Below are positions 5,822-56,692 of a DNA stretch of 64,000 nucleotides, piece by piece. Source of the DNA: Lysobacter capsici (GTDB taxonomy: Bacteria; Pseudomonadota; Gammaproteobacteria; Xanthomonadales; Xanthomonadaceae); the NCBI RefSeq assembly GCF_014779555.2, contig NZ_CP094357.1:372001-436000 (forward strand), given 5' to 3'. The notes under the pieces were generated by a model that worked only from the letters and a program-made list of their open reading frames with translations, was not told the DNA's origin and did no database searches. How positions within the stretch are numbered: the first letter of the stretch is position 1; each line of letters starts with the position of its first letter. The translations under genes and the position numbers were made by a program.

Positions 5822-5834
5822 GGAAGGCAAGACC

Positions 5835-6542
5835 ATGGATTTCGCACGACTCGACCAGACCCTGCGCGAGAGCATCGCCGACTACACCCTCGACAACGAG
5901 GAGAAGTTCGAACTGCGCGAGCTCGGCGGCAGCGTCGGCGCCGACCGCGTGCGCTACCTGCGCAACCGCGCCTTCGACATGACCCGCGAGTTGATGCTCG
6001 CCGAGCCGCCGCGCACGCTCGATGCCTTGCGTTGGCTGGAGCAGGTGGTCAAGACCCTGGACGTCGTCGCCGCCGCGCCGGCGGTGGTGTCGAGCGCTTA
6101 TTTCGCTCCCGGCGATGCGTGTCTGCGCAAATTGCGCGAGCTGTGCCGCGGCGCCAAGCGCAGCGTCGATATCTGCGTGTACACGATTTCCGACGATCGC
6201 CTGACCGAGGAGATCCTGGCCTGCCACAAGCGCGGCATCGCGGTGCGGCTGATCAGCGACAACGACAAGAAATTCGACGAAGGCAGCGACGTGCTGCGGA
6301 TGCGCGAACTCGGCGTGCCGGTGCGGATCGACGACAGTCCATTCCACATGCACCACAAGTTCTCGTTGTTCGACGGCCGGGTGCTGGCCAACGGCAGCTT
6401 CAACTGGACCCGCAGCGCGACCACCAGCAACGAAGAGAACCTGGTGGTGACCGACGATGCGAATCTGGTGCGGTGCTTCGCGGGGCAGTTCGAGGAGTTG
6501 TGGGAGAAGTTTTTGCCTGGGGCGGATGCGGCGCGCTACTGA
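5835..6542 (+). CDS. Phospholipase D-like (HKD) domain protein
   Basis: 235 residues with one HKD motif: H173, K175 and D180 in HHKFSLFD, followed by the usual small/Asn stretch NGSFNW. An N-terminal helical segment of about 90 residues precedes the PLD core (SAYFAPGD, VDICVYTISDDRLTEEI). Single-HKD proteins of this size normally dimerise to make one active site and include nucleases such as Nuc/BfiI types as well as lipid-acting enzymes. No signal peptide is visible, so it should act in the cytoplasm. It starts 13 bases after the ATPase stop behind GGAAGG, so the two are almost certainly co-transcribed and may act together; a nuclease working with the ATPase is the simplest reading. Confidence 0.85.
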   Translation: MDFARLDQTLRESIADYTLDNEEKFELRELGGSVGADRVRYLRNRAFDMTRELMLAEPPRTLDALRWLEQVVKTLDVVAAAPAVVSSAYFAPGDACLRKLRELCRGAKRSVDICVYTISDDRLTEEILACHKRGIAVRLISDNDKKFDEGSDVLRMRELGVPVRIDDSPFHMHHKFSLFDGRVLANGSFNWTRSATTSNEENLVVTDDANLVRCFAGQFEELWEKFLPGADAARY

Positions 6543-6624
6543 GGTTGCGCCGCGATCGGATCGGATTGCGTCAGGGTTGAACGCACATCGACGCTCCAAC
6601 GGATTCCTTGCCACTCTCATCGCC

Positions 6625-6706
6625 GTCATTTCCGCGAACGCGGGAATCCAGTGTCTTTGGCGAGTTCGTACGAAAGTCGCTGGATTCCCGCGTTCGCGGG
6701 AATGAC
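6625..6706. repeat. Inverted repeat of the ATTCCC-N8-GGGAAT type
   Basis: Two copies of an imperfect 20-bp palindrome (ATTCCCGCGTTCGCGGGAAT and a one-base variant) stand in opposite orientation about 30 bases apart, flanked by GTCAT and ATGAC. The core has the same form as the dRS3 element of Neisseria. The same element occurs at 13571-13652 inside a gene. The rest of 6543-6784 shows no gene. Confidence 0.8.
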
Positions 6707-7984: not shown

Positions 7985-8117
7985 GCCGTGCTGTCCGGAC
8001 GATGCGTGAGGCTCGACCCACTCTGCGCCGGGGGCGGGCCGATAAAAAGGCGAGTTAGGTATGTTCTGCGAGCACAAATTATTACTTGGGCGTTCCCGCA
8101 CGCCGTGCACGCATCGT

Positions 8118-10019
8118 TCACCGCGGCGATACCGGCGGCAACGACAGCCAGGTCAGCCGCCATGCGCCGTCGACGCGGCCGCCGGCGCAGTAATAGGGCT
8201 CAAATACCAGCGGCGCGCGATAGCCCGGGTCCAGTTCGATCCGCGGCGTCGGGTGCCGCGCATCGGCCGCATGCCAGTGCAGCCAGTCCGACGCGGGCGC
8301 GGCCGGCGGCTTGAGCGTTTCCTCGGTCTTGAAGCCGTCGATCAGGCCGGTCGCATACACCAGCGGGCCGCAGGTCACCGCCAGATACTCGTTGTGCAGC
8401 ACTTCCTGCGCGACCGGACTGCCGTCGGGCGCGCGCGATTCCTGCACGTTGCGATTGACCGTGGTGTGGAGGTGCGGGGCCATCGGAAAGTCGATGGCGA
8501 TGCGGTCGCTGTCGTTCCACTCGCGATCGAGCACGAGGTAGTCGCCAAGTGCGATCGCGGTCGACACGGATTCGCCATTGATCGACACCGATGCGTCGTT
8601 CGCCCACGAAGGAATTCGCAACTTCAGCGCGAATCGCGCCGAGCGTTCCGGATTCACGCGCAGACCGATGCGGCCATCGAACGGATACGCCGTGTCCTGC
8701 TCGATCCGCACCGTGCCCGCCCGCGCCAGTTCGACCCGCGCCGCGCCCGGTCCGTACAGATTGACCGCCAACGCATCGTCGCCGCCGCGCGTGTAGGCGA
8801 TGGCCGGCAATTCCTCGATCGCCATCGCGCCGCTGGATTTGCAGCAGCGCCAGTACGTCGTATGCACGCGCCGCCCGTTGGGAAACACGTAGTAGCACCA
8901 GTCCTCGCCGTTGGGCGCCTGCGCGCCGAGCAGATCGTTGTAGGCCGAGCGTTCGATCTCCTCGGCGTAACACGCCTGGCCGGTGATGCGCAGCAGTTCG
9001 CGATTGAGCTGGATCCAGGCCAGGGTCGAACAGGTTTCGACATAGCCCTGCGGACTGAACACGCCGGCCGGATTAAACACTTCGCGCGAACGATGAGCGA
9101 CGCCGCCCCAGGGGCCGCCGCCGAGGCTGAGGTGATGATCGCGGATGCTGCGCCACAGCGATTCGACCGCGCTCAGATACTCGGCGCGGCCGGTGGCGCG
9201 ATGCAGCTTGGCCAGGCCGACCAGATTCCACGCGAGTTGATAGGCCTTGCCGGTGGCGATCTGCGCCGCATCCACGCCGGCCAGCGCGCGGGTGAGCAGG
9301 GCGAGATCGGGATGGGCGTCGGCCTGGCTGATCACGGTCAGGGCCAGATCGAGAAACCCGCGCTCGCCGGTGGCGAAATACAACTCGACCGCCGGGTCCA
9401 GCAACACCGTGGCCGACATGCCGTGGTGATTGCCCAGTTCGGTGATGTCGATACCGCCGCGGGTCAGCGTGTCGAGGCACAGCGCGCCGATCCTGCGCGC
9501 CGCGTCGAGATAGCGCGGTTCGGGAAAGTGCTTGTGGATTTCCAGCAGGCCCAGGATCAGATAGGCGTGGGTCCAGATGTCCCAGGTGCGCACGCTCGGC
9601 GCGCCGTCCCAGGTACCGGGCTTGGGCGCCTGTTTGCGCATGAAGCGATGCTCGGGCGCATAGGTGCCCATGTAGCCGTCGGCCTCCTGATGCGCGACCA
9701 GAAAATCGGCGACCCGCCGCACCCGCGCCAGCAGGTCCTCATCGCCGCTGCGCGCGGCCGCCTTGGCCGCGGCGACCAGCCACTTGCCGGCATGTTCGCC
9801 GTACCAGTCGCCCTCGATGTTCTGCTGGCGATGGGCCGGGGTGAAGATCGCGATCGCCGGGCTGGTTTCGTCGACGATGAAATGCGCCAGACGGCCGCGG
9901 CGATTGGCCTCGAGCGCGTCGCCGAGCAGGCCGTCGAGACGGACCTCGACGCGCGCGGTCTTGGCGGTGTAGTCGCTGTGAGTCATGGCGTCGGATGAAG
10001 GCTCAGGGTCGCTGCTCAT
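8118..10019 (-). CDS. GH127-type beta-L-arabinofuranosidase (DUF1680)
   Basis: 633 residues. GH127 enzymes release beta-L-arabinofuranose with a zinc-bound cysteine nucleophile. The metal and nucleophile signature is visible: E328 and C330 in YVETCS, and the Cys pair C392-C393 in YWRCCKSSG, matching Glu338/Cys340/Cys417/Cys418 of the Bifidobacterium HypBA1 enzyme. The all-helical barrel (WTHAYLILGLLEIHK, AYQLAWNL) is followed by a beta domain. No signal peptide is seen, so it may act in the cytoplasm on imported oligosaccharides. Start chosen at 10019 because it forms an ATGA overlap with the upstream gene's stop, implying translational coupling; an alternative ATG lies at 9986. Related families (GH142, GH146) share the fold. 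Confidence 0.88.
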   Translation of the reverse strand: MSSDPEPSSDAMTHSDYTAKTARVEVRLDGLLGDALEANRRGRLAHFIVDETSPAIAIFTPAHRQQNIEGDWYGEHAGKWLVAAAKAAARSGDEDLLARVRRVADFLVAHQEADGYMGTYAPEHRFMRKQAPKPGTWDGAPSVRTWDIWTHAYLILGLLEIHKHFPEPRYLDAARRIGALCLDTLTRGGIDITELGNHHGMSATVLLDPAVELYFATGERGFLDLALTVISQADAHPDLALLTRALAGVDAAQIATGKAYQLAWNLVGLAKLHRATGRAEYLSAVESLWRSIRDHHLSLGGGPWGGVAHRSREVFNPAGVFSPQGYVETCSTLAWIQLNRELLRITGQACYAEEIERSAYNDLLGAQAPNGEDWCYYVFPNGRRVHTTYWRCCKSSGAMAIEELPAIAYTRGGDDALAVNLYGPGAARVELARAGTVRIEQDTAYPFDGRIGLRVNPERSARFALKLRIPSWANDASVSINGESVSTAIALGDYLVLDREWNDSDRIAIDFPMAPHLHTTVNRNVQESRAPDGSPVAQEVLHNEYLAVTCGPLVYATGLIDGFKTEETLKPPAAPASDWLHWHAADARHPTPRIELDPGYRAPLVFEPYYCAGGRVDGAWRLTWLSLPPVSPR

Positions 10020-13154: not shown

Positions 13155-14746
13155 TTCGTCGTATCCGGGGTCGTGGTGTCGTGAGTGTCGCCTTTGCTTG
13201 TATCCGCCATCGCTTCGTCGACCAAGCGATAGAAGTCCTTGCTGATCCTCGGCAGATCGCGCGGTACATCGCCGCGCGGCAGATGCTGCAACAACGCGAT
13301 CGCGACCCATCGACGCGCCGGATCGATCGCATAGGTGGTCGACGCCGCGCCGGGCCAGCCGAAGCGGCCGACCGATCCGGGCTGGCCGCGCTTGACCGGA
13401 TCGATGACGACCGAGCCGCCGAAGCCGAAGCCTTCGCCCGGGTTGAATTGATGCACGGGCGGATCGAGCATGCTGAGTTGGTTGCGCAGCATCAGGGCGA
13501 CGGTTTCGGCTCGGAGGAGGCGTCGAGTGGGTTCGACGGTCGTCTCGGGTTCGCCGCGCTCTTTCCTACCGTCATTCCCGCGAAGGCGGGAATCCAGAGA
13601 CTTTCGTGCAGCCACGTTAAAGTCTCTGGATTCCCGCCTTCGCGGGAATGACGAATTGAAAGGATGTCGGTCCGAAAGGTTCGTTGCTTCATGCGGACAA
13701 TTCGAAGCCGTACCCGTACCCGTACCCGTGCTCGAAGCCAAAGCAAAACCCGAATCCTTTGCCGCAATCGCCCCGCCATCCAACAACACCTGCGCAAACC
13801 GCGCATAGTCGCAAGCCGTCGAATACAACCCGCCCGCGCCGCTGGCATACGCATTCAACGCCGCGCCCGGTTCGCGCGCGCTCGGCCCGTCGGCGATCCG
13901 CAGCCGCCCGTCGTCGCCCATCGTGGTGATGTCGACCACGCGTCCGCGCTGCGACGCCGGCACGCTGAAGCCCGTGTCGCGCATGCCCAGCGGAACGAAG
14001 ATGCGCTCGCGCAGGAAGGCATCGAACGGTTGCCGCGCGACCACTTCGACCACCCGGCCGAGCACTTCGATCGCGGCGCCGTCGTAGCCGAAACGGGTGC
14101 CGGGATCGGCCGCGAGCGGCGCGTGGCTCAATCGCTCGACGAAGCCGCGCAGATCGCTCGCCGCGTGCGGGTCGTTGCGTTCCATCAGCTCGGTCGCGGC
14201 TTCATCGCCTTTCAAGCCCGCGGCGAACCCGGCGGTGTGGGTCAGCAGTTGGCGAATGGTGATCTCGCTGTTGGCCGGGCGCAGTCGCGGTGCGTCGGCG
14301 CTGCCGCCGATCAGCACCTGGCGATGGCCGAGTTCGGGCAGATAGCGCGAGACCGGATCGTCCAGGCCGATGCGGCCTTGTTCGACCAGCAGCATCACCG
14401 CGGCCGAGGCGATGGTCTTGCTCATCGAGTAGATGCGGAAGATCGCGTCCTTGCGCATCGGTTCCCGACGGGCCAGGTCGCGGTGGCCGTAGGCGTGGAA
14501 GTCGACGATGCGGCCTTCGTGCGCGATCAGTACCACGGCGCCGAGGTAGCCGTCGGCACCGGTCGTGTCGCGCATGAAGCGGTGCAGCGCGCTGAAGTCG
14601 GGCTGGACCGTGGGCTGGACGCTGGCCTGGACCGCATGGGCTTGGACCGCATGGGCTTCGTTCGCAAGGCTTTGAGCACACGCCAACCCCGCGCAGCCCG
14701 CACCCAGGATCAGCAGGCAACAGCGAAGGGCGGCGGAAACGGGCAA
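13151..14746 (-). CDS. Exported serine hydrolase, class C beta-lactamase fold, with a repeat-derived insertion
   Basis: 531 residues. A TTG start at 14746 gives a good signal peptide (hydrophobic LLILGAGCAGLACA, cut near A24-Q25), so the enzyme should be periplasmic. The SxxK nucleophile motif is S107-M-S-K110, followed by a family-typical FGYDGAAIEVLG (Tyr motif) and GFGFGGSV near the end. Members include esterases, D-aminopeptidases and PBP-like proteins, so the substrate is open. About 70-80 residues between VLLDGGAIAA and LLRAETVALM are not family-like: they include a (GT)n stretch and SFPRRRESR/LDSRLRGNDG, the translation of the repeat at 13571-13652. The frame stays open, so the product may still be made. 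It lies between the TonB receptor and ribokinase, overlapping the latter by four bases. Confidence 0.8.
   Translation of the reverse strand: MPVSAALRCCLLILGAGCAGLACAQSLANEAHAVQAHAVQASVQPTVQPDFSALHRFMRDTTGADGYLGAVVLIAHEGRIVDFHAYGHRDLARREPMRKDAIFRIYSMSKTIASAAVMLLVEQGRIGLDDPVSRYLPELGHRQVLIGGSADAPRLRPANSEITIRQLLTHTAGFAAGLKGDEAATELMERNDPHAASDLRGFVERLSHAPLAADPGTRFGYDGAAIEVLGRVVEVVARQPFDAFLRERIFVPLGMRDTGFSVPASQRGRVVDITTMGDDGRLRIADGPSAREPGAALNAYASGAGGLYSTACDYARFAQVLLDGGAIAAKDSGFALASSTGTGTGTASNCPHEATNLSDRHPFNSSFPRRRESRDFNVAARKSLDSRLRGNDGRKERGEPETTVEPTRRLLRAETVALMLRNQLSMLDPPVHQFNPGEGFGFGGSVVIDPVKRGQPGSVGRFGWPGAASTTYAIDPARRWVAIALLQHLPRGDVPRDLPRISKDFYRLVDEAMADTSKGDTHDTTTPDTTK
13571..13652. repeat. ATTCCC-N8-GGGAAT inverted repeat inside the serine hydrolase gene
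   Basis: Two near-identical 20-bp palindromes (ATTCCCGCGAAGGCGGGAAT and its inverse) bracket a short spacer, with GTC/GAC ends and CCAGAGACTTT/AAAGTCTCTGG inner arms, giving a long stem. Same family as 6625-6706. It lies within coding sequence and adds a translatable segment in frame. Confidence 0.85.
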
Positions 14747-14828
14747 GGCATGCGGTCCTGCGTGGCGAAAGCGACCGCCGCGAGCGATCGGGCTCGGCGG
14801 CGGTGTCGGGTACGGCCTGGGCGGGCGA

Positions 14829-17099
14829 TCAGAACTTGAAGGTATGGGTGAGCGACACGGTGCGGCCGCGTCCGGCCCAGTAGTTCTGGAAGCCGCCCGG
14901 CGGCTGCGACCAGCTCAGGATGTACTGCTTGTCGAACAGGTTCTCGATGCCGAGCGAGAACTTGCCATAGCGCTCGGTCTCGAAGTTCATGCCCAGGTCG
15001 AACAAGGTGTAACCATGGGTGCTTTCCTTGAAGCTGAAGCGCTGGCCGTCGAACGCGCGCACGTCGCTGCCCGACAGGTTGCGCGAGAACAGCGTGGTCG
15101 CGCCCAGGCTCATATCGGCGTGCGGCAGGAAGTTCCAGGTCAGGGTCCAGGCGAACTTGTCGGGGTTGATGTCGAGCACGCCCATCGGCTTGTTGGTGCC
15201 GCCGGCGGGGTAGCGTCCGGCCGCGTCGGCGGCCCAGAACGAGGTCTTGCCGGCGGTGTGCGAGTACACCGCGCTGAACCGCCAGTCCTCGTTGAAGCGC
15301 CAGTCGCCCGACAATTCGTAGCCCTTGATCCGCACCGGCGCGCGCAGCAGGACGAAGTCGTTGGTGGCCGGGTCGATCGCCAGCGATTGGCCGTAGTCGG
15401 ACTTGGAGTCGTAATGCGAAGCGCTCAGCGCGCCGCGCTCGCCGCGCCAGTTGAAGCCGAACTCGGTGTTCTTGACCACGATCGCGTTGAGGTCGAGCAG
15501 ATCGCCCACGCCGATGCGCGGATCGTTCGGGCAGCCGTCGGGCTGGGTGTCGCCCGGATCGTTGGAGCACTGGATGTTGCGCAGCGGGATGCCGACGTTG
15601 GCCAGGGTGAAGCCTTCGCCGTAGGAACCGAACACCGACCAGGCGTCGTTGATGCGCCAGACCGCGCCGAGGTTCTTCAAGGTTTCCTGGTATTCGAGCG
15701 TGCCGCCGTCGACATGGCGGCGATCGCGATACCAGGTGGTGGTGTAGCTGTCGACGTGCAGTTCGCCGTCTTCGCGGCGCAGGCCGCCCGACAGGGTGAC
15801 CGGGCCGATGTCCCACGACAGCTGCGCCCACGGCGCCTTGCTGCTGTATTCCATCGGCGGCACCCACAGCCGGTTGGTCAGCGCCAGGCGCTGCTGCGCG
15901 GTGTCCTTGACCAAATCCAGGCCGACCCGCAGTTCCAGCCCGCTGACCGAGAACAGCGACGGCCGCGCCCACGAGGTGCGCAGGCCTTTCTTGTTGGTGA
16001 CGATTTCCGATTGGTCGTAGATGGTGTCCATCGGCGCGATCAACGGGTCCTGCTTGTCGATCGTGTTTTCCGGCAGATAGCGCATTTCCTGATCGGCCTT
16101 GTAGCCGTTGATGGTCAGGGTGCCGCCGAAGAAATCCGAATGGATGTAGCTGAGCTGGTATTGCTTGAAGTCGTTGATCGCGGCCTTCGAGCCGAAGATC
16201 GAACCGCGCTCGGAGGTGTTGGTGCGGGTCGCGCCGCACAGCGCGGCTTCGTCGGGACGGCAGCCCAGCACCTGCACGTAGTTGGCCTTGCCTTCGATGT
16301 TGAAGTGGCTGATCGAGCCTTCGATGCGCTGCACGCCGTCTTCGCCGAAGTTGTAGCCGGCCTTGATGAACACGTTGCTCGCTTCGGTGTCGGCCAGCGA
16401 ACCGCTGGTGTTCATGCCGATGCGGCGGCCGTTGCCGTCGTAGGTGATGCCGCGGTCGAGAAACGAGGCCGCGGCGATCATGTCGAAGTTGCCGGCCTTG
16501 CGGGCGAAGGTCGCGCCGAGTTTCCAGCCGGCGCTGTCGTCCTTGAACTGGGTGGTGTAGCGCGAGGTGATGGTGAACTCGTTGCCTTCCTTGGTCGGCG
16601 CCGCGGACAGGTAGTTGATGATGCCGCCGGCCGCGCCGATGCCCTCCGACGCCGACGGGCCGTTGATGACCTCGATCCGGCCGACGATGCCCATGTCGGT
16701 GAAGGTGCCGTTGCGAGTGCCTTCGCGCAGCGGCGAACCCTGCGGCACGCCGTCGAACAGGCGCAGGGCGACGCGGCCGCGCAGGTTCTCGCCGGTGTTG
16801 CTCATCGCCTGCGAGGATTCGGCGTAGCCGGGCACGGTGCGCGCGAGCACCGCGGTGGCGTCCTCGGTCAGCACCAGGCTGCGTGCGAGTTCGGCCTTGG
16901 ACACCAGGGTGATCGCGCCGGGAATCTTGTCGACCGCCTTGGGGCTGCGGGTGCCGGTGACGACGACGTTGTCGAGGTCGACAGCGGCTTTGTCGCTGCT
17001 GGGCGTGGCGGCGGGGTCGGCGTCTTGCGCGTAGCTGGTGCCCGCGAAGGTGGAGAGCAGCAGCACGCTGCTGATCGCGGCGGTAAGTGGCTTGAGCAT
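14829..17099 (-). CDS. TonB-dependent outer-membrane receptor
   Basis: 756 residues from ATG 17099, with signal peptide MLKPLTAAISSVLLLSTFAG ending in SYAQ. After a short linker comes the plug domain (VVVTGTRSPKAVDKIPGAITLVSKAEL, GRIEVINGPSASEGIGAAGGIINYL) and a 22-strand-type barrel with typical turns (FGSYGEGFTLANVGIPL, KNTEFGFNWRGERGALSASHYDSK) ending in aromatic residue F as needed for BAM (SLTHTFKF). It imports a ligand using TonB energy. Siderophore receptors and glycan receptors both have this layout; the GH127, ribokinase and SUMF1-fusion genes downstream on the same strand favour an oligosaccharide. It is the first gene of that operon, with a terminator and 578 bases of non-coding DNA in front. 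Confidence 0.9.
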   Translation of the reverse strand: MLKPLTAAISSVLLLSTFAGTSYAQDADPAATPSSDKAAVDLDNVVVTGTRSPKAVDKIPGAITLVSKAELARSLVLTEDATAVLARTVPGYAESSQAMSNTGENLRGRVALRLFDGVPQGSPLREGTRNGTFTDMGIVGRIEVINGPSASEGIGAAGGIINYLSAAPTKEGNEFTITSRYTTQFKDDSAGWKLGATFARKAGNFDMIAAASFLDRGITYDGNGRRIGMNTSGSLADTEASNVFIKAGYNFGEDGVQRIEGSISHFNIEGKANYVQVLGCRPDEAALCGATRTNTSERGSIFGSKAAINDFKQYQLSYIHSDFFGGTLTINGYKADQEMRYLPENTIDKQDPLIAPMDTIYDQSEIVTNKKGLRTSWARPSLFSVSGLELRVGLDLVKDTAQQRLALTNRLWVPPMEYSSKAPWAQLSWDIGPVTLSGGLRREDGELHVDSYTTTWYRDRRHVDGGTLEYQETLKNLGAVWRINDAWSVFGSYGEGFTLANVGIPLRNIQCSNDPGDTQPDGCPNDPRIGVGDLLDLNAIVVKNTEFGFNWRGERGALSASHYDSKSDYGQSLAIDPATNDFVLLRAPVRIKGYELSGDWRFNEDWRFSAVYSHTAGKTSFWAADAAGRYPAGGTNKPMGVLDINPDKFAWTLTWNFLPHADMSLGATTLFSRNLSGSDVRAFDGQRFSFKESTHGYTLFDLGMNFETERYGKFSLGIENLFDKQYILSWSQPPGGFQNYWAGRGRTVSLTHTFKF

Positions 17100-49840: not shown

Positions 49841-50890
49841 ATGAATCGCGACACGGCGGCGCCCTCGTTGGGCCGCGAGACCGACAATTCGACTGTGACC
49901 GCGGCGCCGACGGATGTGGCGATGGCGGTGCTTACCCCGGGCGAATTCGAACTGTTCGCCGAGATCGGTCGGCCGCGTCGGATCGAAGCCGGCCAGGTGC
50001 TGTTCCGCCGCGGCGAACTGGGCACCACCATGTTCGTGATCGCGCGCGGCGCGATCACCCTGGACTTCGGCGACGACCTGGTCACCAAGCGCCTGGGCGT
50101 GCGCGAATTCTTCGGCGAACTCGGCCTGCTGATCGGCGATCACGCGCGCAGCGCGGATGCGATCGCGGCCACCGACGGCCTGCTGGTCGAGCTGCGCCAC
50201 GAAGAGTTTCAGCGGTTGGTCGATCGCGACCCTTCGCTCGTTTCGTATTTCCTGCGCCGCGCGATCATGCGCGTGGTGCTCAACGAACAAAGCCTGATCC
50301 GGCGCCTGCGCCGGCGCAACCAGGATCTGGAAGCCGCGCTCGACAGCCTGTACGCGACCACCCATCAGCTCAACCAGACCGAAGAGCTCATCCGCACCGA
50401 CGACCTCACCGGCCTGTACAACCGCCGCGGCCTGACCTTGCACCTGCAGGACGCGCGCGCGGCCGGCATGGCCGAGACCATGGGCCTGGTGCTGATCGAT
50501 TGCGACCGCTTCAAACAGGTCAACGACGATCACGGCCATCTGGCCGGCGACCGCGTGCTGCAGAGCGTGGCCAACATCCTGCGTTCGGTGGCCGGGCCCG
50601 AGGACATCGCCTGCCGTCTGGGCGGCGACGAATTCTGTCTGTTGGTCGCCGCGCGCACCCGCCAGGACGTGATGCGCTTCGCCGACTTCATCGTTCACAC
50701 CGTGCATGGCCTGCTGCTGATCCCGCAGTCTCCGCCGACCATCTGTCCGGTCAGCGTCGGCGCCTGCCTGGTCAGCGCCAAGCACGAGTGGAACGACTGG
50801 TACGCACACGCCGATACCGCGCTTTACCAGGCCAAGCGCCTGGGCGGCAATCGCGTGCATTGGCAGGACGCCGAACTGACGCCGGCGTGA
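49841..50890 (+). CDS. Cyclic-nucleotide-binding domain plus GGDEF diguanylate cyclase
   Basis: 349 residues. Residues about 28-140 form a CNB (Crp/PKA-type) domain: LTPGEFELFAEIGRPRRIEAGQVLFRRGELGTTMFVIARG, FFGELGLLIG, phosphate-loop ARSADAIAATDGLLVELR. A helical linker (150-185) leads to a GGDEF domain with signature GGDEF at 261-265 and the metal residues in LVLIDCDRFKQVNDDHGHLAGDRVL intact, so it should make c-di-GMP. Cytoplasmic. It precedes the cyclase/TPR gene by 23 bases (or overlaps it if that gene uses the upstream GTG), so the CNB domain could sense a nucleotide tied to that partner. Confidence 0.9.
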   Translation: MNRDTAAPSLGRETDNSTVTAAPTDVAMAVLTPGEFELFAEIGRPRRIEAGQVLFRRGELGTTMFVIARGAITLDFGDDLVTKRLGVREFFGELGLLIGDHARSADAIAATDGLLVELRHEEFQRLVDRDPSLVSYFLRRAIMRVVLNEQSLIRRLRRRNQDLEAALDSLYATTHQLNQTEELIRTDDLTGLYNRRGLTLHLQDARAAGMAETMGLVLIDCDRFKQVNDDHGHLAGDRVLQSVANILRSVAGPEDIACRLGGDEFCLLVAARTRQDVMRFADFIVHTVHGLLLIPQSPPTICPVSVGACLVSAKHEWNDWYAHADTALYQAKRLGGNRVHWQDAELTPA

Positions 50891-50913
50891 GTTCCGCCGA
50901 CAAGGATGCCGCG

Positions 50914-53541
50914 ATGAACGATGCCCACCGCCCTCTGGCCGAAGGTCCGCAACTGCGTACCTTGCTGCTGACCGACCTGTGCGATTCGACCACCCTGGTC
51001 GAACGCCTGGGCGACGGTCCGGCGGCGGAGTTGTTTCGCGCTCACGACCGTCTGGTGCTGGCCTTGCAGCAACGCTGGCGCGGCCGCCTGATCGACCGCT
51101 CCGACGGCTTGCTGCTGTTGTTCGAGCGGCCGATCGATGGCCTGGGCTTCGCCCTGGATTACGCGCGCGGCCTGCGCGAGCTCGGCGCGGCGCGCAAGCT
51201 GGAGCTGAAGGCGCGCGCCGGCCTGCATGTCGGCGAAGTGCTGACCTGGCGCAACAGCGACGAGGCGGTGCAGGTCGGGGCCAAGCCGGTCGAAGTCGAG
51301 GGCCTGGCCAAGCCGATGGCCGGCCGGCTGATGGCGACCGCGCGTCCGGGCCAGATCCTGTTGTCGGCGGTGGCCGAACCGCTGGCCCATCGCGCCGCGC
51401 GCGAACTGGGCGAACGCGGCCAGCAACTGCTATGGAAATCGCACGGGCGCTGGCGCTTCAAGGGCGTGCCCGAGCCGCAGGAAATCTACGAGGTCGGCGA
51501 ACCCGGCATCGCCCCGCTGCGCGCGCCGCCGAACGGCCCCAAGGCCTGGCGCGATATTCCGCTGTGGCGGCGTCCGGCCGCGCTTGCCGCCGAGATCGCG
51601 GTGCTGGCGGTGATCGGCACCGGCGTGTGGTTCGCGACCCGGCCGCAGCCGGCGATCGCGTTCAACCAGCGCGACTGGGTGGTGGTCGGCGACCTGCGCA
51701 ACCTCACCGGCCAGAGCGTGCTCGACGATTCGCTCGAACAGGCCTTCCGCATCAGCCTGGAGCAGTCGCGCTACGTCAACGTGCTGTCCGACCTGAAGGC
51801 GCGCGACACCCTCGAACGCATGCAGCGCAAGCCCGACACCACGCTCGACCGCGCGGTCGCGTCCGAGATCGCGCTGCGCGACGGCGCGCGCGCGGTGATC
51901 CTGCCGACCGTGGCCGAAGTCGGCGGGCGGGTGCGGATCAGCGCCGAAGTCATCGACCCGCATACCCAGACCACGGTCTATGCGCAATCGGCCGACGGCG
52001 CCGGCGCCGACTCGGCGCTGGGTTCGATCGACACGGTCACCGCCGGCTTGCGCGAAAAGCTCGGCGAGGCGATGAAGTCGATCGAACGCGATTCCGAGCC
52101 GCTGCCGAAAGTCGCGACCAAGAACCTCGACGCGCTGCGTTCCTACGCGCTGGGCCAGAAGGCCTTCGGCGCCGGCCGCTACGACGACGCGGCCAACTTC
52201 TACCAGCGCGCGACCGCGCTGGATCCGAACTTCGCCCTGGCCTACCTGGGCAGCGTGCGCACCGGCGTGGCCTCGGTCAACGCGACCCACGCCAAGCCGT
52301 TCCTGGCCCGCGCGATCGAGCACCGCGACCGCCTGCCGCCGCGCGACGCGCTGTACCTCGACGCGTGGTCGGCCGAATTCGTCACCGGCCATCAGGCCGC
52401 GAGCAAGTGGAAGCTGCTGGCCGACCTTTACCCGGATTACTTCGCCGGCGCGGCCAACTACGCCTTCAACCTGATGCAGGAAAACCGCTACAAGGAAGCG
52501 CAGGCCTACGCCGAGCGCACGACCTTGCCGCAGAACCCGCTGCGCGGCCACGGCTACGACCAGCTCGGCCGCAGCGAACTGGGCCAGGAGGATTTCGCCG
52601 CCGCGCGCAATGCCTTCGATCAGGCGCTCAAGCTCAATATTTCCGACGCCGCGCGCCGCCGCGCCAACGTTTCGGCGGCGCAGGGCGGCTACGCCGACGC
52701 GATGCGCCGGTTGGAGAGCAAGTCCGACGGCGGCAAGCAGGGCTATGCGCGGGTGCAGGATCTGGACAAGACCTCGGTGCTGCTCGATCAGGGCCGCTGG
52801 GCCGAGGCCGAACGCTACATCGACGCGGCCGCGCGCCTGCCGGTGGAAGGCAACGAATTGCTGCAGCACGTGCTCGGCGTCGCCGCCGGCAGCGTGACCT
52901 CGCTCAACGGCGACCGCGCGCGCGCGCGCGCGCGCCTGGGCGCGTCGGCCAAGCGCGCGCTCGACGCGGCCGCGGCCGATGCCGCCTACGACGAAGTCGA
53001 TTACGTGTACTTCGCCCTGGCCTCGGCCTATCTGGTCCAGCGTCAGGGCGATTCGAGCCTGGCCCAGTCGGTGCTCGACGCGCTCAAGGACCGCCCGCAG
53101 CTGTGGGCGACGCCGAAACTGTCGGAATTGCGCGAAATCGTATTGGCCGGCCAGGAGCGTTTGTCCGGCAAGCCCGAAGCGGCGATCCGCCGCCTGCGCA
53201 CCCTGTTGACCGGGCACGAGCTGTATCAAAGCCGCGCCGCGCTGATGGAGGCCTATGCCGCCGCCGACCAGCCCGAGCAGGCGCTGATCCAGGCGCGCTG
53301 GTTGGCCAGCCATCGCGGCCTGGCCTATATCGAACCGGTCGGCGCGCAGTCGTTGCAGCCGTTGAACGTCGCCGATTCGCGCCTGGCGCAACTGCGCGCG
53401 GCCGAATTCCTGAACCAGCTCGGCCGCACCGAGGAAGCACGCAAGGAGGCGCAGGCGTTCTTGGCCGCCTGCCCTCCCAAGTTGTTGCCGGCTTACTTCT
53501 TCTCGAGGGTCGAGAGGATCCTGCCCGCTTCGAAGCAGTGA
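50914..53541 (+). CDS. Class III cyclase-like domain, membrane segment and TPR protein of a peptide-modification locus
   Basis: 875 residues from ATG 50914 (AAGGA seven bases upstream; a GTG at 50887 overlapping the GGDEF stop is the alternative). Residues 10-185 resemble a class III nucleotide cyclase: metal Asp in LLLTDLCDST and RSDGLLLLFE, and ARAGLHVGEV. The Asn and Arg normally found in the VN-x-AAR motif seem replaced (VEVEGLAK), so activity is doubtful. One membrane segment at about 220-240 puts the rest in the periplasm: a TolB/FlgO-like domain (DWVVVGDLRNLTGQSVLDDSLEQAF) and TPR-like repeats from about 410. The arrangement and neighbours match what is annotated as 'putative peptide modification system cyclase' in Xanthomonas/Lysobacter. 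A (CG)10 run at 52915-52935 lies in the coding sequence. Confidence 0.85.
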   Translation: MNDAHRPLAEGPQLRTLLLTDLCDSTTLVERLGDGPAAELFRAHDRLVLALQQRWRGRLIDRSDGLLLLFERPIDGLGFALDYARGLRELGAARKLELKARAGLHVGEVLTWRNSDEAVQVGAKPVEVEGLAKPMAGRLMATARPGQILLSAVAEPLAHRAARELGERGQQLLWKSHGRWRFKGVPEPQEIYEVGEPGIAPLRAPPNGPKAWRDIPLWRRPAALAAEIAVLAVIGTGVWFATRPQPAIAFNQRDWVVVGDLRNLTGQSVLDDSLEQAFRISLEQSRYVNVLSDLKARDTLERMQRKPDTTLDRAVASEIALRDGARAVILPTVAEVGGRVRISAEVIDPHTQTTVYAQSADGAGADSALGSIDTVTAGLREKLGEAMKSIERDSEPLPKVATKNLDALRSYALGQKAFGAGRYDDAANFYQRATALDPNFALAYLGSVRTGVASVNATHAKPFLARAIEHRDRLPPRDALYLDAWSAEFVTGHQAASKWKLLADLYPDYFAGAANYAFNLMQENRYKEAQAYAERTTLPQNPLRGHGYDQLGRSELGQEDFAAARNAFDQALKLNISDAARRRANVSAAQGGYADAMRRLESKSDGGKQGYARVQDLDKTSVLLDQGRWAEAERYIDAAARLPVEGNELLQHVLGVAAGSVTSLNGDRARARARLGASAKRALDAAAADAAYDEVDYVYFALASAYLVQRQGDSSLAQSVLDALKDRPQLWATPKLSELREIVLAGQERLSGKPEAAIRRLRTLLTGHELYQSRAALMEAYAAADQPEQALIQARWLASHRGLAYIEPVGAQSLQPLNVADSRLAQLRAAEFLNQLGRTEEARKEAQAFLAACPPKLLPAYFFSRVERILPASKQ

Positions 53542-53813
53542 GGGTTGTTGTAGGCCGCGGCCGAGGTCAGGAAGTCCTTGATCAAGGCGCGGGCCTGGGC
53601 GATCTCTTCCTTGGGCGCGATCTGGACCGTGGTCATGCACGCCATCAAGGCGTCCTCGGGAATGTCGTGACCGGCCTTGCGCACTGCCGCGACCGGGTCT
53701 TTCGCGAACAGATCGCGGAAGTCGTTATCGGTGCTGAGCAGTTCCAGCAGCTTGTCGGCGACGGCCGGATCGAACGGCGTGTGCTCGCCGCCGGGTGGTT
53801 TTCTGGTAGCCAT
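53493..53813 (-). CDS. NHLP-like RiPP precursor peptide
   Basis: 106 residues. The leader-like body (PAVADKLLELLSTDNDFRDLFAKDPVAAVRKAGHDIPEDALMACM) resembles nitrile-hydratase-derived NHLP leaders (D-x-FR-x-L-x-x-DP-x-x-A-x-R-x-AG). The end is small and unlike the leader: SAAAYNNPHCFEAGRILSTLEKK. Cysteines are C59 and C93 only; there is no GG cleavage site. It fits the family annotated as putative modified peptide next to SagB-type dehydrogenases in Xanthomonadaceae. Start ATG 53813 after GGGGAAA. Residues 92-106 and the stop lie antisense to the last codons of the cyclase gene. The product is unknown; likely core is the last 20-25 residues. Confidence 0.85.
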   Translation of the reverse strand: MATRKPPGGEHTPFDPAVADKLLELLSTDNDFRDLFAKDPVAAVRKAGHDIPEDALMACMTTVQIAPKEEIAQARALIKDFLTSAAAYNNPHCFEAGRILSTLEKK

Positions 53814-54173
53814 AGTTTCCCCATTTCCCCCACTAATGATGCCCGTTAAGGGCGTACTGAGCGCCGAATCTAACCCCGTAGGGACAACGCGACAACCTGC
53901 GCGAACAGGTCAACCATGCCTGCGCGCACGCGTTGCATGCGCCCGATGACGGCGATTTCTAACGCGCGGGTGTGACCGCAGCGTGGCGTGAGCCGTTTCG
54001 TTATGCCAATTCAGCTTGCGCCGCAGGCACCGCTGGCGATGGAGTGGCCGGCGTCGCGCGAACCTGCGGCGTCGGCGCCGACGGTCCGGAGCGCGTGATA
54101 ACGTCCTGTCCCGGCCGGCAACGGGCGGGTCCGACTCGCGCCTCCGGCTTCGCCTACGACACAGGACCGCTTC
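53814..54173. promoter_or_regulatory. Divergent region, precursor peptide / dehydrogenase
   Basis: 360 bases, no gene. On the minus strand a possible sigma-70 pair TTGTCG (53890-53895) and TTAGAT (53868-53873) with a 16-base spacer stands 54 bases before the precursor ATG. Nothing clear reads towards the dehydrogenase. Confidence 0.4.
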
Positions 54174-55355
54174 ATGCGCATACGCCGCTGCGCCGTGCTC
54201 TTCTTCGAGCCGCGCGAACAGATCGGCTTCGATCTCAATTCGCTGCTCAGCGGCGGCGCCGGCCTGCACCGCGAGCTGCGCTGGCTGGCCCTGGCCGCGC
54301 ATCTGGAGGCGGAGGTCGAGGTCGACGGCGATGAGCGCGAACTGCTCGGCGCGCTCAGCCCCGGTTTCTGGATCGACAGCGCGACGCTCGAGCCGCGCTT
54401 CGCGGCTTCGTTACAACGCCTGCTCGAACAAGGCCTGATCGTGGCCGAGGACGCGCGCCACGCCGGCCATCGCGAACGCGACGAGACCCTGCGCGCCGGC
54501 CACTGGTGGCCGGCGGCGGCGATGGCGCACCGGCTCGCGCGCTGGCAGGGGCTCGACAGCGTCAGCGTCATGGAAGCCAACGAAATGACCACCGCCGCCG
54601 AACTGCGGCGCAAGCTCGGCCCGCCGCCGGTGCATGCGCCGCAACGCGGCGACGCGCGGGCCCGAGTGACGCTGCCGCGCGTCGACGGCAACGACTTCGA
54701 CGCGCTGCTGGCGCGACGCGCGACCTGCCGCAATTTCGACGGCGAGCGCTCGCTGCCGCTCGAATTGTTCGCGCACATGCTGCAACGCGTGTTCGCCGCG
54801 CAGGCGCAGGTGCGGATCGACGACGACACCGTGTTCCTGAAGAAACACACGCCGTCCGGCGGCGGCCTGCATCCGACCGAGGCTTATCTGATCGTGCAGC
54901 GCGTCGACGGCATCGCGCCGGGGTTGTACCACTACCACGCCGCCGATCACGCGCTGCAGCCCTTGCCCGCGCCCGACGAACCGCTGGAGACCTTCGCCCG
55001 CCGCGCGCTCGCCGGCCAGCACTGGTTCTCCAACGCGCCGGTGCTGGCGGTGCTGGCGCCGCGCTATGCGCGCAGCTTCTGGAAGTACCGCAATCATCCG
55101 AAGGCGTATCGCGCGCTGGTGCTCGACAGCGGCCATCTGTCGCAGACGCTGTATCTGAGCGCGACCGAACTCGGCCTGGCCGCGTTCGTGACCTCGGCGA
55201 TCAACGAGATCGATATCGAACGCGGCTTCGGCCTGGACCCGCTGGTCGAAGGCCCGCTCGCGGTGTGCGGCTTCGGTTGGCGCGCGCAGCGGATGGAAAC
55301 GACGGAGTTCGATCCAAACGAAGAAGTCTGGACGCCAACGCCCGAAAAACAGTGA
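54174..55355 (+). CDS. SagB-like flavin-dependent peptide maturation dehydrogenase
   Basis: 393 residues. Residues 1 to about 165 form a helical domain resembling the N-terminal half of SagB relatives, followed by the nitroreductase-type FMN domain: DALLARRATCRNFDGERSLPLELF, PSGGGLHP (227-234), GLYHYHAADHALQPL, FWKYRNHPKAYRALVLDSGHLSQTLYLSATELGLAAF and the C-terminal GFGWR. SagB enzymes oxidise azolines to azoles in RiPPs. No cyclodehydratase (YcaO) is in the window, so the substrate bond is open. The gene diverges from the precursor peptide gene. Its last nine codons begin a 94-bp tandem repeat. Confidence 0.87.
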   Translation: MRIRRCAVLFFEPREQIGFDLNSLLSGGAGLHRELRWLALAAHLEAEVEVDGDERELLGALSPGFWIDSATLEPRFAASLQRLLEQGLIVAEDARHAGHRERDETLRAGHWWPAAAMAHRLARWQGLDSVSVMEANEMTTAAELRRKLGPPPVHAPQRGDARARVTLPRVDGNDFDALLARRATCRNFDGERSLPLELFAHMLQRVFAAQAQVRIDDDTVFLKKHTPSGGGLHPTEAYLIVQRVDGIAPGLYHYHAADHALQPLPAPDEPLETFARRALAGQHWFSNAPVLAVLAPRYARSFWKYRNHPKAYRALVLDSGHLSQTLYLSATELGLAAFVTSAINEIDIERGFGLDPLVEGPLAVCGFGWRAQRMETTEFDPNEEVWTPTPEKQ

Positions 55356-55618: not shown

Positions 55619-56692
55619 ATGTGGCCCGATCGTCGTATCCAGGAATTGTTCGGCATCGAACTGCCGATCGTGCAGGCGCCGATGGCGGGGCCGACCTTGG
55701 CCGAGATGGTGATCGGCGCGGCCCGCGCCGGCGCGTTGGGATCGCTGCCGTGCGCGCTGCTGAGCCTGGAGCAGGCGCATGAGCAATGCCGTCTGATCCG
55801 AGAGGCCACCGATCGGCCGCTCAATCTGAATTTCTTCTGCCACCGCCCGCCCGCGCCCGATCCGGCGCGCGACGCCGCCTGGCGCGAACGGCTCGCGCCG
55901 TATTACCGCGAGTTCGGTCTCGACCCGGCGATGCCGGTGTCGCCGTCGAACCGCGCGCCGTTCGATGCGCAGTGGTGCGAGCTGGTCGAACAGCAGCGCC
56001 CGCGGGTGGTGAGTTTCCATTTCGGCCTGCCCGACGCCGACCTGCTGCAGCGGGTGCGCGCCACCGGCGCGCGGGTGATTTCGTCGGCGACCACGGTGGC
56101 CGAGGCGCGCTGGCTCGAACAGCACGGTTGCGACGCGATCATCGCCCAGGGCGCCGAAGCCGGCGGCCACCGCGGCGTGTTCCTGAGCGATGACGTATCC
56201 ACCCAGGTCGGCCTGTTCGCCTTGCTGCCGCAGATCGTCGACGCGGTCGACGTGCCGGTGATCGCCGCCGGCGCGATCGGCGACGCGCGCGGCATCGCCG
56301 CGGCGTTCGCGCTCGGCGCGGCGGCGGTGCAGATCGGCACCGCGTATCTGTTTTGCCCGGAAGCGAAGATCTCGCCGCTGCATCGCCGCGCCTTGTTCGA
56401 TGCGCGCGAGGACGAGACCGCGTTGACCAACGTCTTCACCGGCCGACCCGCGCGCGGCATCGTCAACCGCCTGATGCGCGAAGCCGGACCGCTGTCGCCG
56501 CTCGCGCCCGCGTTCCCGCTCGCCGGCGGCGCGCTCGCGCCGCTGCGCGCGAAAGCAGAAGCCGCGGGCGCGGCGGATTTCATGCCGCTGTGGTCGGGGC
56601 AGGCGCGCTATCGGCGCGAGCTGTCGACTTATGAGTTGACGCGTGCATTGGCGCGCGAGGCGTTGGCCTTGATCGGTACTCGCGCCAGTTGA
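55619..56692 (+). CDS. Nitronate monooxygenase family protein (NPD-like)
   Basis: 357 residues, FMN-binding TIM barrel. QAPMAGPTLAEMV at the N-terminus, the catalytic/phosphate GAEAGGHRG loop, VIAAGAIGDARGIAAAFALGAAAVQIGTAYLF, and EDETALTNVFTGRPARGI are family features. Oxidises alkyl nitronates such as propionate-3-nitronate; relatives include enoyl reductase FabK-like proteins. 263 bases downstream of the dehydrogenase gene on the same strand; membership of the RiPP locus is unclear. Confidence 0.87.
   Translation: MWPDRRIQELFGIELPIVQAPMAGPTLAEMVIGAARAGALGSLPCALLSLEQAHEQCRLIREATDRPLNLNFFCHRPPAPDPARDAAWRERLAPYYREFGLDPAMPVSPSNRAPFDAQWCELVEQQRPRVVSFHFGLPDADLLQRVRATGARVISSATTVAEARWLEQHGCDAIIAQGAEAGGHRGVFLSDDVSTQVGLFALLPQIVDAVDVPVIAAGAIGDARGIAAAFALGAAAVQIGTAYLFCPEAKISPLHRRALFDAREDETALTNVFTGRPARGIVNRLMREAGPLSPLAPAFPLAGGALAPLRAKAEAAGAADFMPLWSGQARYRRELSTYELTRALAREALALIGTRAS

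Follow-up and report, generated by a model that had tools for sequence, protein, structure and literature searches.

In Xanthomonas campestris, cyclic GMP (cGMP) is made by the protein XC_0250 and binds XC_0249, raising the synthesis of cyclic di-GMP (c-di-GMP) by the latter; this pathway affects biofilm and virulence, and adjacent homologues were reported in other xanthomonads (An et al. 2013, PMC3770947). The main text of that paper, searched by word, mentions neither a peptide nor a SagB gene, and the consulted portions do not report alleles of the XC_0250 sensor half or name a signal that it senses. Peptide pherotypes of Gram-positive bacteria have a characteristic allelic architecture: agr has a hypervariable region in agrB, agrD and agrC and occurs in four allelic variants (PMC10482373), and comQXPA is polymorphic, with four pherotype groups and ComA as its least diverse member (PMC4008528); each paper cited here is represented by the portions of it that were consulted. 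Here we describe a four-gene block at positions 49841..55355 of a 64,000-nucleotide stretch of the Lysobacter capsici genome (the window; contig NZ_CP094357.1, positions 372,001 to 436,000). The block encodes predicted counterparts of XC_0249 and XC_0250 together with a precursor peptide and a SagB-like flavin mononucleotide (FMN) oxidase, and across its relatives three elements, namely the cyclase's sensor half, the peptide and SagB, are inherited together as interchangeable alleles, next to an output half that stays conserved.

Alleles exchanged next to a conserved output half

The first gene (49841..50890, forward strand) encodes a 349-residue cyclic nucleotide monophosphate (cNMP)-binding and GGDEF protein (PF00027, PF00990), a putative cGMP-responsive diguanylate cyclase. 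The second (50914..53541, forward strand; 875 residues, TIGR04510) encodes a predicted transmembrane guanylate cyclase with a FlgO-like/TPR sensor region. Its codons 1-215 (50914..51558) make up the guanylate cyclase domain, a conserved output half predicted to be cytoplasmic; the main transmembrane helix follows at codons 223-241 (51580..51636, hydropathy 1.94), and the remainder (51637..53538) is the sensor half, predicted to be extracytoplasmic and found to be allele-specific in within-genus identity comparisons.

The loci compared were an initial 80, 40 more from five genera and the window itself, 121 in total. Pairs within a genus were divided into those with different peptides (less than 65% identical) and those with the same peptide (at least 65%), and mean identity was taken for the GGDEF protein, cyclase residues 1-215, cyclase residues 256 to the end, the peptide, the N part of SagB and the SagB oxidase, in which order the values are given here. 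For Xanthomonas these were 90.9, 92.0, 36.5, 34.2, 39.3 and 51.9% in the 37 different-peptide pairs against 91.4, 94.5, 81.9, 79.3, 79.8 and 83.9% in the 18 same-peptide pairs. A second genus of the family (g7) gave 92.6, 93.3, 37.9, 37.7, 40.5 and 53.3% (87 pairs) against 93.8, 94.5, 85.4, 91.5, 81.9 and 89.6% (18 pairs). It is clear that in these two genera the GGDEF protein and the catalytic half keep an identity of more than 90%, and that the sensor half, peptide and SagB change over jointly from one allele to another, at 34-53% identity. The contrast is milder in the window's own genus, with 86.1, 93.5, 57.3, 47.2, 60.2 and 77.3% in 127 different-peptide pairs and 95.4, 98.1, 88.7, 85.0, 78.5 and 86.8% in 26 same-peptide pairs. 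In two further genera it is mixed with general divergence: g29 gave 70.5, 67.4, 33.9, 33.9, 38.5 and 54.8% (110 pairs) against 92.9, 91.5, 83.0, 77.1, 81.7 and 87.1% (10 pairs), and g11 gave 71.4, 76.3, 42.7, 44.2, 47.9 and 65.7% (39 pairs) against 82.2, 86.3, 65.1, 73.0, 69.8 and 77.6% (6 pairs).

The switch can be seen in single pairs, such as loci L110 and L140, whose cyclase domains are identical and whose sensor halves share 35%. Over the 150 pairs from Xanthomonas and g7 the identity of the sensor half is bimodal, with 112 pairs at or below 50%, none between 50 and 60% and 38 above 60%. In the window's genus, 14 of 17 congeners carry a peptide less than 60% identical to that of the window, and over 124 pairs identity along the cyclase is at least 86% as far as residue 360, with a low of 22% at residues 641-680. 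An earlier note on this DNA, made from the sequence alone, had overlooked that these three elements vary as one allelic cassette in several genera.

The edges of the cassette were located at the DNA level in Xanthomonas. From 79 retrieved loci, the 25 at 81-100% identity were used and the 54 at 42% or less were dropped as general GGDEF proteins, one from Xanthomonas sp. AmX2 at 35% among them; the pair counts for the edges come from 23 named Xanthomonas loci, with L213 (short SagB) and L214 (broken locus) omitted. X. euroxanthea and X. arboricola NL_P126 share 95.4% of their DNA sequence up to cyclase codon 230 and 94.6% again from 68 bp past the SagB stop. Three strains of X. arboricola (juglandis CFBP 2528, populi CFBP 3123 and NL_P126) have three different peptides, and their flanking blocks (92.0-94.5%) end at codon 230 and resume 102-152 bp past SagB. 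Among 177 different-type pairs the left block ended at a median of codon 227 (interquartile range 202-230, found in 173); the right block could be located in 151 and restarted a median of 179 bp beyond the SagB stop. In Xanthomonas, then, the exchanged cassette starts in the transmembrane helix of the cyclase.

In trees of 13 Xanthomonas and 24 other loci, hand-picked to span the cassette types, Xanthomonas forms one clade for the GGDEF protein (support 100) and for the N half of the cyclase (97), and a single Xanthomonas clade is rejected for the sensor half (log-likelihood difference 452; approximately unbiased test, p-AU 1e-56) and for SagB (203; p-AU 5e-5). On trees of 73 loci, counted with no shuffle control, the type of the peptide tail changes 3 times on the cyclase C-half tree and 5 times on each SagB tree, against 15 times when the tree is built from the N-terminal half of the cyclase and 16 times when it is built from the GGDEF protein. 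Judged by the sensor half, 27 of 105 loci have their closest relative in another genus, compared with 5 by the cyclase domain and 3 by the GGDEF protein; in 58 of the 105 the sensor half is nearer to another genus than to the least similar congener, while the output half is nearer to that congener.

Similarity was also correlated between the parts, using pairs that are not independent of each other and values that carry no significance test. Within genera (516 pairs; 113 of the 121 loci) the rank correlation of the peptide is 0.87 with the sensor half and 0.21 with the GGDEF protein. In 104 single-peptide loci (5356 pairs), the similarity of the proposed peptide core follows the two TPR parts (0.49 and 0.43) and the SagB oxidase (0.45), with low values for the FlgO-like part (0.08) and the cyclase domain (0.17); its partial correlations are 0.27 with the oxidase, 0.17 and 0.13 with the TPR parts and -0.28 with the FlgO-like part. 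For the leader the highest value is that with the SagB N-domain (0.55), the FlgO-like part (0.51) being close behind. The membrane-helix edge and the match between core and TPR parts argue for a functional relationship, without proving it.

The proteins of the locus

The assignment of the first two genes follows from residues described for the X. campestris pathway. The nearest PDB chain to the GGDEF protein, 5h5o, covers residues 29-154 and is 96% identical to the GGDEF protein of the Xanthomonas locus L077; we infer that it is XC_0249, for which the published account names the entry 4KG1. Positions 90, 98, 145 and 146 of the L077 protein bear the letters stated in PMC3770947, as do those of the window protein; equivalents of E90, H98 and E146 and the GGDEF motif are present in 76 of 76 relatives and N145 in 70 of 76. 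Positions 41, 71, 73, 150, 157 and 161 of the L077 cyclase likewise agree with that account, and the window cyclase has identical letters at all six of the XC_0250 positions mutated there. Four of these, in window numbering, are nearly invariant in 79 relatives (D34 in 78, D64 in 79, A143 in 79, A154 in 76), and L66 and L150 are each kept in fewer than 85%. By these residues the first two genes are the counterparts of XC_0249 and XC_0250, adjacent cNMP-GGDEF and class III cyclase-TPR genes equipped for the synthesis and binding of cGMP; the published account, in its consulted portions, differs in that it mentions neither a peptide nor a SagB gene beside them. The protein that the earlier note took for a peptide-modification cyclase is accordingly corrected to an XC_0250-type guanylate cyclase by predicted activity, its GGDEF neighbour to an XC_0249-type cGMP effector, and a role as a peptide cyclase was rejected. 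The tie to second messengers suggested in that note is supported, but these messengers look like the output of the system and not, as it had supposed, a control on the making of the peptide.

Beyond the catalytic domain the cyclase matched a TPR profile, and FlgO fell below its cut-off. The strongest hydrophobic segment, at residues 223-241 in the window, falls within residues 200-280 in all 79 relatives, and a second segment exceeds the threshold of 1.6 in only 4 of the 79. Since the GTP-using domain must be inside the cell, the FlgO-like/TPR half is predicted to lie outside the inner membrane.

The peptide gene (53493..53813, reverse strand) encodes 106 residues and overlaps the 3' end of the cyclase gene by 49 bp in convergent orientation. 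With 95.2 bits against TIGR04509 (cut-off 34), well above the cut-off, it is a member of that family and not a chance open reading frame (ORF). The window cyclase scores 1150.9 bits against TIGR04510 (cut-off 400) and the SagB-like protein 589 bits against TIGR04511 (cut-off 240); in the genome, a single contig of 6.24 Mb, there is one match to the peptide and one to SagB. The four-gene block, the NHLP-like leader of the 106-residue peptide, its pairing with a divergently oriented SagB-like FMN enzyme as in a ribosomally synthesised and post-translationally modified peptide (RiPP) locus, and a variable-looking tail had all been proposed beforehand, and each withstood the analysis.

In an alignment of 109 relatives the helical, NHLP-like leader is followed by a variable linker, a second helix and a tail, the last being the part that differs most between types. 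The tails fall mainly into a CFEAG-like and an LDAG-like type. In Xanthomonas, peptides of one type share 84-96% identity over the last 22 columns and peptides of different types 20%; inside each of three types these columns are no less conserved than the remainder. The proposed core comprises the last 25 residues (53496..53570, reverse strand), with a presumed boundary, and ends in NNPHCFEAGRILSTLEKK. Several loci encode more than one peptide, for example L096, L105, L111, L123, L145 and L146. The structure model of the peptide is of moderate quality (predicted local distance difference test score 75), and a structure search with it gave no match at E<=0.001; the list was headed by Os1348 and nitrile hydratase alpha, with proteusin precursors lower at E 0.68 or worse, and so lends the NHLP fold weak support. 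The peptide thus resembles NHLP/proteusin-type precursors (PMC2887384) in its NHLP-clan leader and, weakly, in modelled structure.

The SagB gene (54174..55355, forward strand; TIGR04511) encodes a 393-residue SagB-like FMN oxidase and is separated from the divergent peptide gene by an intergenic region (53814..54173) in which a promoter scan found no sigma-70-like site. Among the solved folds nearest to it are those of the azoline oxidases McbC, BmdC and ThcOx, and the motif W303-K304-Y305 is invariant in 57 relatives, its KY aligned with the KY of BmdC and ThcOx. The winged-helix-like N-terminal domain (54174..54473) is modelled in the order E-E-H-E-E-H-H-E, and the alignment with BmdC begins at residue 1. 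The 96-residue N-terminal domain of BmdC is described as RRE-like, that is, like a RiPP recognition element, and BmdC and ThcOx share the fusion of an RRE-like or peptide-clamp N-domain to an FMN oxidase domain (PMC8795117, PMC5108345). By model and alignment, the N-terminal domain of the window protein is a probable RiPP recognition element, and SagB probably modifies the peptide. A nitronate monooxygenase-like gene (PF03060) lies downstream of SagB at 55619-56692.

Unlike BmdC and ThcOx, the enzyme lacks a heterocyclase partner in its locus, and in most cases the genome encodes none either. YcaO exceeded its cut-off in 19 of 297 family genomes, compared with 182 of 297 for SagB; 18 of the 19 bear the peptide, and in 167 of 185 peptide genomes no YcaO was found, for which reason azole chemistry is unlikely as a general role. 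The earlier expectation of non-standard chemistry is supported by this distribution, and its companion statement that YcaO is absent holds for the four-gene block but fails genome-wide, as the window genome has three YcaO genes outside the window (G000:C1 5021933, 5087823 and 6116503; L155-L157).

These figures come from a survey of 297 genomes of the window's family, some of them incomplete, in which the peptide exceeded its cut-off in 185 and the cyclase in 184. By recount of the genomes listed, all 185 peptide genomes have a SagB match (E<=0.001), in keeping with the co-occurrence that had been foreseen, and 184 of them a cyclase match at E<1e-50, the exception being G175; G054, G126, G167 and G290 have such a cyclase match and no peptide match. 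In a class-wide sample of 321 genomes TIGR04511 exceeded its cut-off in four, each of them from the same family. All four genes, with length filters applied, are present in 113 of the 121 loci; one locus (L091) is truncated at a contig end, and L113, L131 and L163 each have one gene outside the filters. GGDEF, cyclase and SagB genes run in that order on one strand in 73 of the first 81 loci (window included), and the commonest order has the peptide gene alone between cyclase and SagB. Departures include L145 and L146, where a single block spans both strands and contains several SagB-like genes along with many peptides, and L120 and L121, with a second, shorter cyclase-like ORF (641 residues) after SagB at about 8077-10002 (oriented). 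In X. phaseoli (L214) the peptide gene is split into two pieces about 1.1 kb apart (13941-15442) and neither a full-length cyclase nor SagB was found in the locus; in X. vasicola (L213) the SagB ORF has only 216 residues; in some species, it seems, the locus is in decay. Upstream there is a malate synthase gene in 60 and an isocitrate lyase gene in 63 of 81 loci, so that the locus appears to occupy a fixed site, and a mobile antibiotic cluster is unlikely.

A possible peptide signal and its alternatives

On balance we lean towards a polymorphic peptide-signalling locus resembling agr and comQXPA, in which the transmembrane guanylate cyclase would be the receptor; the SagB-oxidised peptide as its cognate ligand is our best reading. 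The RRE-like domain of SagB would bind the NHLP-type peptide through its leader and the enzyme would oxidise the C-terminal core, our most specific guess being that, as most carriers have no YcaO to make azolines, the tail would be alpha,beta-desaturated close to its Phe/Leu. The mature core would then reach the periplasm by an export step and bind its cognate TPR sensor half; binding, in whichever direction it acted, would set cGMP synthesis inside the cell, and cGMP would turn on the adjoining cNMP-GGDEF protein so that c-di-GMP rises.

What likens it to agr and comQXPA is that the enzyme, the peptide and the sensor half vary jointly while the output half is conserved, as found in Xanthomonas and g7 and more weakly in the window's genus. 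The enzyme here is an FMN oxidase, where agr has the membrane peptidase AgrB and comQXPA the isoprenyl transferase ComQ; the part of comQXPA's ComP that varies is its sensor part. Both of those systems signal through a histidine kinase and a response regulator in Gram-positive bacteria, whereas this locus has a class III cyclase counterpart and a GGDEF protein in Gram-negative bacteria. Because receptor and relay differ, the locus may work like agr or comQXPA but is a member of neither. More tentatively, and somewhat short of what we would favour, it could be the first bacterial peptide-pheromone system with a transmembrane guanylate cyclase receptor, combining Gram-negative pherotypes made by a YcaO-free SagB, a cGMP to c-di-GMP relay and matched alleles of peptide, enzyme and sensor exchanged between species as a cassette with its edge, in Xanthomonas, in the membrane helix. 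Among the papers listed from the open-licence PubMed Central literature, none links TIGR04509, TIGR04510 or TIGR04511 to the cGMP pathway or describes the alleles.

Several observations weigh against this signalling model. In g29 and g11 the output half of different-peptide pairs also differs (67-76%), and over all 300 within-genus pairs with a cyclase domain at least 90% identical the sensor half is not bimodal, 85 pairs lying at 50-60%. Sensor and peptide are discordant at a 60% threshold in 50 of 516 within-genus pairs, and in 106 of the 516 the SagB oxidase is at least 70% identical although sensor and peptide differ. In the window's genus the sensor half diverges only past about codon 360 (51994), and the change is milder, the SagB oxidase being about 77% identical in most comparisons with the window. 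The lowest cyclase block in different-type pairs is 641-680 in all five genera, but since codons 600-760 rank with the least conserved in same-type pairs as well, this block is only a candidate ligand site. Between genera (5812 pairs) the correlation of peptide and sensor half is 0.50 (0.26 for peptide and GGDEF), and the partial correlation of the leader is greater with the FlgO-like part (0.24) than with the SagB N-domain (0.15), which was not predicted. The mid-peptide cysteine is present in only 85 of 109 peptides. The adjacent GGDEF gene is lacking at L114, L123, L145 and L146, where peptide and SagB are kept. The cyclases of L114, L145 and L146 are unchanged at five of the six positions mutated in XC_0250; that of L123 (8312-11023), near five near-identical peptide ORFs (4612-6683), keeps aspartates 21 and 64, has a gap in a conserved loop and is changed at four of the six (34, 66, 150 and 154), so that to judge from these residues it has probably lost cGMP output while sensor half and peptides were retained. 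Nor does the block contain a conserved exporter gene; the commonest gene order has none, a difference from NHLP/proteusin-type precursors (PMC2887384, consulted portions). C39-peptidase (PF03412) is over cut-off in 206 of 297 genomes, and 12 of the 20 genomes listed as lacking it carry the peptide; a C39 transporter was therefore rejected as an obligate dedicated exporter.

Co-variation has a simpler source as well, since block exchange could make linked genes vary together even if their products never bind. On this basis the sensor half might diversify against an outside ligand from phage, competitor, plant or cell wall, with the peptide and SagB merely linked to it and doing another job. The three genes are adjacent, so that one recombination event would move them all, and the sensor half is large and rich in TPRs; the similarity of the core nevertheless tracks the TPR parts rather than the FlgO-like part nearer the membrane, and the last 22 peptide columns are well conserved within three types, as for a constrained ligand. 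We consider this explanation rather unlikely. Unlikely, too, is a secreted antimicrobial or kin-discrimination peptide for which the matched cyclase would serve as self-sensor or protection factor: the many alleles within one genus, and even one named species, and the multi-peptide arrays of some loci would suit it, but the commonest order has a single peptide gene between cyclase and SagB, the genes upstream suggest a fixed site, and the known output regulates biofilm and virulence (PMC3770947, consulted portions).

Read from the NCBIfam names, the locus would be a system for peptide modification whose cyclase and GGDEF proteins just regulate the amount of peptide. The names themselves and the co-occurrence of the genes favour this, and all three models of the trio are exceeded well over cut-off; yet the protein named peptide-modification-system cyclase is here a predicted guanylate cyclase, the cNMP-GGDEF gene belongs to the set as well, and the set forms an allelic cassette. 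Control of synthesis would leave unexplained why the sensor half, and not the catalytic half, switches alleles with the peptide, and we judge this explanation quite improbable. That SagB oxidises azolines made by a YcaO encoded elsewhere, as for a thiazole/oxazole-modified microcin (TOMM), would fit the McbC, BmdC and ThcOx folds and the three YcaO genes of the window genome but is very improbable, and was rejected as a general role, given the YcaO-free block and the 167 of 185 peptide genomes (some incomplete) in which no YcaO was found.

Under the signalling model, the peptide is a candidate for the missing input of a bacterial cGMP pathway, one shown to affect biofilm in Xanthomonas and for which the consulted portions of PMC3770947 name no XC_0250 signal. 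TIGR04509, a RiPP family for which no known function was found, is given a signalling role open to test. Gram-negative bacteria are now seen to have the allelic architecture by which peptide pherotypes are recognised in Gram-positive bacteria. If the model is true, strains of one species would fall into groups that hear, or are deaf to, one another through cGMP and c-di-GMP.

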